From the NCBI GenBank assembly GCA_027365105.1, contig DAHXNZ010000003.1, positions 1-64,000 on the forward strand: 64,000 nt of DNA. The letters run 5' to 3'. The position numbers were made by a program, and so were the translations under genes. This DNA is from Thermoplasmata archaeon. Lineage in GTDB: Archaea; Thermoplasmatota; Thermoplasmata; Lutacidiplasmatales; UBA184. Below the pieces are notes generated by a model. The model did no database searches and was not told the origin of the DNA. It was given only the letters and a program-made list of their open reading frames with translations. Of this stretch, positions 5,200 to 5,513 are shown in pieces (within the stretch, counting starts at the first letter, position 1; every line of letters begins with the position of its first letter).

Positions 5200-5406
5200 G
5201 GGCCTTCGCTCCCGGCGCCGGACCAATGCGGGGGGCCGGAGGTTCCGGTGGTCGGGAGGCCCCGACCGTCCCTTTGAACCGGCGAATGCCCTGGGCAACA
5301 GGGTCCTAAGCCCTGCCTCGGTGGCCCGACCCGACCCGGTCGGCGGTCGGGCTGGTTGGCCGAACTGGAGCACCCCCGCATTGGCTCGTGATCCCGGATT
5401 CCCGAG

Positions 5407-5513
5407 TAGCCCCGGCAGGAGTTTCGGCGCGTGGAGTCGGGTCCTTCCACGGCGTTCGAACCTGCGTCGCGAGATCCAGAGTCTCGCATGATTGGCCACT
5501 ACACTACGGGGCT
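5407..5513 (-). tRNA. tRNA-Gln (CUG) with a 34-nt intron in the T loop
   Basis: Read on the minus strand. The acceptor arm AGCCCCG pairs with CGGGGCT (7 bp, A1-U72) with discriminator A73. Anticodon stem CGAGA/TCTCG encloses loop CTCTGGA, anticodon CUG. The D arm has GG at 18-19 and a U13/U22 mismatch. The T stem GCAGG/CCTGC is perfect but is separated by 41 nt instead of 7. Removing 34 nt (5421-5454) restores T loop TTCGAAT and a 73-nt tRNA. The insertion forms a bulge-helix-bulge splice motif (see the intron entry). CCA is not encoded. A TATA-like ATAACGG at 5541-5547 lies about 30 nt upstream. Confidence 0.9.
5421..5454 (-). other. tRNA-Gln intron at position 59/60 with canonical BHB motif
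   Basis: In the transcript, T-loop bases UUCG pair with CGAA near the 3' end of the insertion, giving a central 4-bp helix. It is flanked by a 3-nt bulge on each side (AAC on the 5' side, ACU on the 3' side). The T stem closes the outer side; an inner hairpin GCCGUGGA/UCCACGCGC with one bulged C closes the other. Cutting after the second base of each bulge, as archaeal splicing endonuclease does, removes exactly 34 nt and joins UUCGAA to U. Only the DNA was seen; splicing itself is inferred. Confidence 0.88.

Follow-up and report, generated by a model that had tools for sequence, protein, structure and literature searches.

Background

It has been argued in reviews that the number and position of tRNA introns in an archaeal lineage go with the type of its splicing endonuclease, EndA, so that lineages with alpha4 or alpha'2 enzymes have few introns at 37/38, whereas those with the loop-bearing (alpha-beta)2 and epsilon2 enzymes have many introns that can lie anywhere. 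In euryarchaea with alpha4 or alpha'2 EndA, introns are found in fewer than 10% of the tRNA genes, one in each, at 37/38 (PMC4090602). The alpha'2 enzymes have been described as cleaving canonical bulge-helix-bulge (BHB) structures only (PMC4033280), and efficient removal of relaxed BHBs has been ascribed to (alpha-beta)2 and epsilon2 enzymes only (PMC6379350). The alpha'2 EndA of Ferroplasma acidarmanus is reported to cleave minimal BHBs (PMC8707768). Position 59/60 is a listed non-canonical site in Thermoproteales and other Thermoproteota (PMC4090602). For the Lutacidiplasmatales, the paper that named them used the archaeal mode of tRNAscan-SE and reported tRNAs for all 20 amino acids, with no mention of introns in its text (PMC9287336).

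Results and discussion

Structure of the tRNA-Gln(CUG) gene

The window, which is the whole stretch of 64,000 nt that was analysed and comes from a soil archaeon of the Lutacidiplasmatales (Thermoplasmatota), carries on its minus strand a tRNA-Gln(CUG) gene of 107 nt (5513..5407) that is interrupted in the T loop, at 59/60, by an intron of 34 nt (Table 1). Exon 1 begins with AGCCCCG and ends with GCAGGTTCGAA, exon 2 is TCCTGCCGGGGCTA, and the minus strand reads AGCCCCG-UAGUGUAGUGGCCAAUCAUG-CGAGA-CUCUGGA-UCUCG-CGAC-GCAGG-UUCGAA / 34 nt / U-CCUGC-CGGGGCU-A. When the two exons are joined, the resulting 73-mer pairs at 7/7 positions in the acceptor stem, 5/5 in the anticodon stem and 5/5 in the T stem, and its T loop is UUCGAAU. 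The anticodon CUG lies in a 7-nt loop and the body is that of the intronless relatives. Removal of the intron leaves a complete standard tRNA-Gln that matches its intronless homologues. In the fold of the unspliced RNA the T stem runs on into UUCG:CGAA between two 3-nt bulges, AAC and ACU, with a hairpin beyond, which is the canonical archaeal BHB, its central helix being 4 bp long. The rule for cutting such a structure, behind the second base of either bulge, places the intron at 59/60. Compared to shuffled sequences the fold energy has a modest advantage, with z = -1.5 for the whole gene and -2.4 for the T arm.

When the window was scanned for tRNAs by structure, with a scan that is blind to those with D-loop introns, this gene came out as the sole tRNA interrupted in the T loop. 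When the same scan was run on both strands of 25 first-order Markov copies of the window there was no match with a T-loop intron alone, and the single weak match that was found scored 25 as against 32 for the tRNA-Gln gene. The first-pass annotation had described a tRNA-Gln(CUG) with a 34-nt BHB intron at 59/60, had called such an intron unusual for euryarchaea and had suspected that it hides the gene from standard annotation. Every detail of that description that was checked was correct, the rarity of the site in a euryarchaeal-type lineage is borne out, and both ARAGORN and Rfam at its gathering score indeed failed to detect the gene in the window.

Table 1. Exons and introns of the tRNA-Gln(CUG) and tRNA-Leu(UAG) genes in the window
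Feature	Position	Strand	Basis
tRNA-Gln(CUG) exon 1, positions 1-59, anticodon CTG	5455..5513	minus	sequence; conserved in 68 distinct genes; same-length intronless homologues elsewhere
tRNA-Gln intron at 59/60, 34 nt, CGAA of BHB central helix near 3' end	5421..5454	minus	fold; constant length
tRNA-Gln(CUG) exon 2, U60 to discriminator base A73	5407..5420	minus	perfect pairing with T stem and acceptor stem of exon 1
tRNA-Leu(UAG) exon 1, acceptor 5' strand and first part of D arm	5356..5379	minus	locus comparison; 74 distinct full-length homologues
tRNA-Leu D-loop intron, 35 nt, BHB with GGCC:GGCC central helix	5321..5355	minus	pairing kept; natural absence
tRNA-Leu(UAG) exon 2, remainder of D arm, anticodon arm, variable arm, T stem 5' strand, UUCAAA	5273..5320	minus	
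tRNA-Leu T-loop intron at 59/60, 32 nt, BHB with UUC:GAA	5241..5272	minus	U54-C56 pairs
tRNA-Leu(UAG) exon 3	5227..5240	minus	locus comparison

The adjoining tRNA-Leu(UAG) gene

A comparison of the locus among relatives revealed a tRNA-Leu(UAG) gene with two introns (5379..5227, minus strand) that begins 27 nt downstream of tRNA-Gln. It was undetected in the window by ARAGORN, by Rfam and by the first-pass annotation, which gave a sound account of one gene and overlooked both this neighbour and the scale of the phenomenon, the tRNA-Gln intron being one of 13 T-loop introns in the genome. The D-loop intron is joined as GGCCAA / intron / CGAGG and its central helix is fully paired in 70/72 genes, and the T-loop intron has a UUC:GAA-type helix in which the three U54-C56 pairs are intact in 74/74 distinct full-length genes. 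In two distinct gene sequences (L034/L099 and L159) the D-loop intron is precisely absent at the joint that the BHB rule predicts, which makes this a natural empty site.

Among the homologues (L031-L170) the lengths of the tRNA-Leu introns differ almost only in steps of 3 nt (24, 27, 30 and 33 in the D loop; 32, 35 and 38 in the T loop), unlike the tRNA-Gln intron, which is constant at 34 nt. These steps are not explained by an overlapping reading frame, since the spacing between tRNA-Leu and the gene downstream shows an even spread modulo 3. In the window the gene directly after tRNA-Leu codes for a calcineurin-like phosphoesterase (PF00149; 4303..5199, minus strand), and the phosphoesterase motif is found at a similar spacing behind the tRNA-Leu gene in many relatives.

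tRNA introns and splicing enzymes of the source genome

The tRNA genes of the source genome (201 contigs, 97.5% complete) were inventoried with Rfam and with a model that covers a tRNA from its 5' end to two thirds of its length, followed by reading locus by locus. Nineteen of the 43 tRNA genes found (44%) are interrupted, by 21 introns in total, and 18 of these 21 are non-canonical. Thirteen introns are at 59/60, namely in Gln-CUG, Leu-UAG, Gly-UCC, Arg-UCU, Arg-UCG, Ser-CGA, Ser-GCU, Glu-CUC, Asn-GUU, Ala-GGC, Asp-GUC, His-GUG and Lys-UUU; five are in the D arm (Leu-UAG, Lys-UUU, initiator Met, Arg-GCG and Pro-UGG), where the empty site fixes the joint of the Leu intron only; and three are at 37/38 (a Met, Tyr and Leu-UAA). 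A related genome (G018) has T-loop introns in the identical 13 isotypes. No second tRNA-Gln(CUG), which had been named beforehand as the finding that would speak against the interrupted gene, was found in this 97.5%-complete genome, the sole other tRNA-Gln being Gln(UUG). Neither Rfam nor the 5' model found tRNA-Trp, tRNA-Pro(GGG) or tRNA-Ser(GGA) in the genome; these may lie within gaps or may be more heavily interrupted. Transposition of introns between isotypes of this genome was considered and finds no support by eye, the introns sharing the BHB bases only.

When 34 distinct T-loop introns were compared, the pairs of U54, U55 and C56 were all kept in 33, and 17 of these 33 also keep the fourth pair. 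U60 follows directly after the intron in 33/34.

The genome has a single EndA gene (region C66:28633-29412) that codes for two tandem N+C units (PF02778 and PF01974 in each), and the catalytic Tyr, His and Lys, as read from alignments, are in the second unit only. By this predicted architecture the enzyme is of the alpha'2 type, the type of Archaeoglobus and Thermoplasma. When it was aligned to the EndA of A. fulgidus and M. jannaschii no insertion resembling the crenarchaeal CSL loop or the ASL loop of ARMAN was seen before LSLxEA. The placement of these loops just before the LSLxEA helix was deduced from offsets in the alignments together with Lys161, a residue published for ARMAN-2 (PMC12397907). 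Likewise, an alignment with intron-poor relatives showed no family-specific insertion. The enzyme thus has neither the separate beta subunit or third unit nor the CSL/ASL loop with Lys that mark EndA of broad specificity. The recognisable protein is about 354 aa, the same as in relatives. Open frames of 533-617 aa had hinted at a longer protein with one more domain at the N terminus, but they look like read-through of a GC-rich upstream frame and the idea was set aside. A gene for RtcB is present.

These data bear on the proposal, made by the first-pass annotation on the strength of tRNA-Gln, that the splicing endonuclease is relaxed in its choice of site. Extended to the lineage, the proposal would be that a relaxed-specificity endonuclease, acquired or evolved there, removes the intron. 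In its favour, the central helix has no more than 3 bp in 16/34 distinct T-loop introns, and the usual enzymes of lineages rich in introns are (alpha-beta)2 or epsilon2 (PMC6379350), but the only EndA gene here has the alpha'2 architecture with no CSL/ASL-like or family-specific insertion, and we consider this explanation rather unlikely. For tRNA-Gln itself the claim is unsupported, since a plain alpha'2 EndA goes together with a BHB of 4-bp helix and 3-nt bulges that narrow enzymes can cut, and being canonical this intron calls for no relaxation and is no problem for a narrow EndA. The 3-bp introns, those of tRNA-Glu and tRNA-Ala among them, might be a problem, and relaxed cutting may still be required wherever the central helix has just three pairs, as in roughly half of the remaining T-loop introns.

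Conservation of the interrupted gene

When a 108-nt query (the tRNA-Gln gene and one flanking base) was searched against the DNA of 41 related genomes, matches of 85-100% identity were found in most genomes of the same genus. When 84,980 species genomes were scanned for the pattern, at least 80 tRNA-Gln stretches were obtained, nearly all of them in MAGs named 'Thermoplasmata archaeon', and Candidatus Lutacidiplasma silvani AcS3-62 and UBA184 are among the matches listed. There were 68 distinct gene sequences and every one of them is 107 nt long with an intron of 34 nt. The mean majority-base fraction over these genes is 0.995 in the exons and 0.70 in the intron, and each of the four pairs of the central helix is kept in 67-68/68, the intron side having A or G opposite U. 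The inner helix of the intron varies from gene to gene, and RNAalifold predicted no consensus inner helix for the 68 genes. In other families of the class tRNA-Gln(CUG) is intronless with the predicted loop UUCGAAU, which confirms the splice joint. Because the interrupted gene is conserved across its relatives it is to be taken as real, and this conservation is the decisive evidence for it.

The same data make it very improbable that the insertion broke the gene and left a pseudogene, with the CAG codons being read by tRNA-Gln(UUG). An intact tRNA-Gln(UUG) does exist in the genome, and U34 tRNAs are able to stand in for C34 tRNAs in archaea (PMC6000648), but the exons are almost invariant while the intron drifts with its BHB pairs kept, and 12 further isotypes have an insert at the same site, for several of which no alternative tRNA was found. 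That the structure is an artefact of assembly or binning, as might be asked of an assembly in 201 contigs, is exceedingly improbable, since the same structure and the order Gln-Leu recur in dozens of separately assembled genomes. The catalytic core of a group I intron is about 200 nt or more. Self-splicing introns and split or permuted genes are known generally as disruptions of tRNAs (PMC4033280), but they have next to no probability here, as 34 nt is far below group I size, no Rfam intron match was found in the window, and the exons of tRNA-Gln follow each other on a single strand in the normal order, with 34 nt between them.

Distribution of T-loop introns

We searched 200 genomes of the class with a covariance model for the T-loop intron. 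Each of the 30/30 sampled genomes of the family of the source, from several genera, had 6-14 matches, the two other sampled families of the order (three genomes) had zero, and most other families of the class had 0-2 matches, which are candidates, with up to 5 in family f25. With this many matches in every genome of the family and few or none in other families, the expansion is, as far as model matches tell, a family trait, and the site 59/60 itself is used elsewhere too. In three genomes of f25 (L280, L284 and L286) tRNA-Lys(UUU) reads as interrupted in the D, anticodon and T loops.

Other disruptions of tRNA-Gln were also seen. A MAG labelled Woesearchaeota (L120) has a 59/60 intron of 36 nt in tRNA-Gln, and one labelled Undinarchaeales (L140) has a 59/60 intron of 31 nt with anticodon UUG. 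In two other Thermoplasmata MAGs (L100/L173 of G026, and L156) the T loop of tRNA-Gln(CUG) contains an insert of just 14 or 16 nt, and in G026 the short T-loop insert is accompanied by a 22-nt insert at 37/38. In another family of the order (L171 of G027 and L172 of G025) the T loop of tRNA-Gln(CUG) is intact and an insert of 384 or 184 nt that contains repeated motifs is found near 37/38; both lengths exceed the range published for tRNA introns of archaea, 11-129 nt (PMC4090602). For family f2 the idea that tRNA-Gln is split was ruled out, as the 3' half is in cis past the 184- or 384-nt insert.

Proposed mechanism

We have very high confidence in the reading that 5513..5407 is a functional, apparently single-copy tRNA-Gln(CUG) gene with a canonical BHB that would be spliced by the alpha'2 EndA and RtcB. 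Most likely, EndA would cut BHBs wherever they are placed and RtcB would ligate the ends. In the tRNA-Gln transcript, U54-G57 of the T loop would pair with the CGAA that lies close to the intron's 3' end, and the BHB would be stacked on the T stem. The alpha'2 EndA, reading the BHB and not the position in the tRNA, would cut both bulges between their second and third bases (AA^C and AC^U), upon which RtcB would ligate A59 to U60 to give the loop UUCGAAU and a tRNA-Gln of 73 nt, and the 34-nt intron would be released and probably circularised. The 20 other introns of the genome would be removed by the same EndA/RtcB route. A simple reason why 59/60 may recur is that the universal T-loop motif UUCRA supplies one strand of a BHB, so that an insert needs little beyond GAA and a bulge; the site would be favoured for insertion because half of a BHB is already there. 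It is from sequences and predicted folds that we infer the cleavage, the ligation, the enzymes responsible and this reason for the recurrence of 59/60. Removal of the introns with 3-bp helices by the alpha'2 EndA is the less certain part, given the narrow label that has been published for this type (PMC4033280, PMC6379350).

Comparison with known systems

A single intron at 59/60 is of an already known kind. An expansion of such introns in a lineage with alpha'2 EndA was not found in the open literature, where a search for non-canonical tRNA introns in Thermoplasmatota gave nothing on point, subscription papers and GtRNAdb being outside its scope. We suggest tentatively, and with some doubt, that the Lutacidiplasmatales have undergone an intron expansion centred on 59/60 in which an alpha'2 EndA handles relaxed BHBs in the absence of a CSL or ASL loop. 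If true, intron diversity would no longer be tied to the loop-bearing types of EndA, as is now accepted. The idea that enzyme and introns co-evolve becomes directly testable in this family. There is also a practical side to it, as common tRNA finders overlook many tRNAs of these archaea of acid soils.

Ferroplasma acidarmanus belongs to the Thermoplasmatota, the same phylum as the source. Its EndA is alpha'2 like the one here, and non-canonical tRNA introns are not discussed in the accessible part of the paper on that enzyme (PMC8707768). ARMAN-2, of a lineage formerly counted as euryarchaeal, also has non-canonical introns and has an epsilon2 EndA (PMC12397907), but the ARMAN enzyme has three units and an ASL loop and the enzyme here has neither. 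In the Asgard Atabeyarchaeia and Freyarchaeia (PMC11291895), which are likewise soil archaea, there are many non-canonical and multiple tRNA introns, but these belong to a different phylum. The Euryarchaeota that have alpha4 or alpha'2 EndA and introns at 37/38 share the type of enzyme and, as in tRNA-Gln, a canonical BHB with two 3-nt bulges; however, fewer than 10% of their genes are interrupted, by one intron at 37/38 (PMC4090602), whereas here it is 19/43 genes with 18/21 introns elsewhere. The Thermoproteota resemble the source in having BHB introns in the D and T arms, several introns per gene and many interrupted genes, about 48% in Crenarchaeota (PMC4090602) compared to 44% here, but they have (alpha-beta)2 EndA. 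In the Thermoplasmatota, a family with a plain alpha'2 EndA reaches crenarchaeal intron density with most of its introns, 13/21 in the source genome, at one site.
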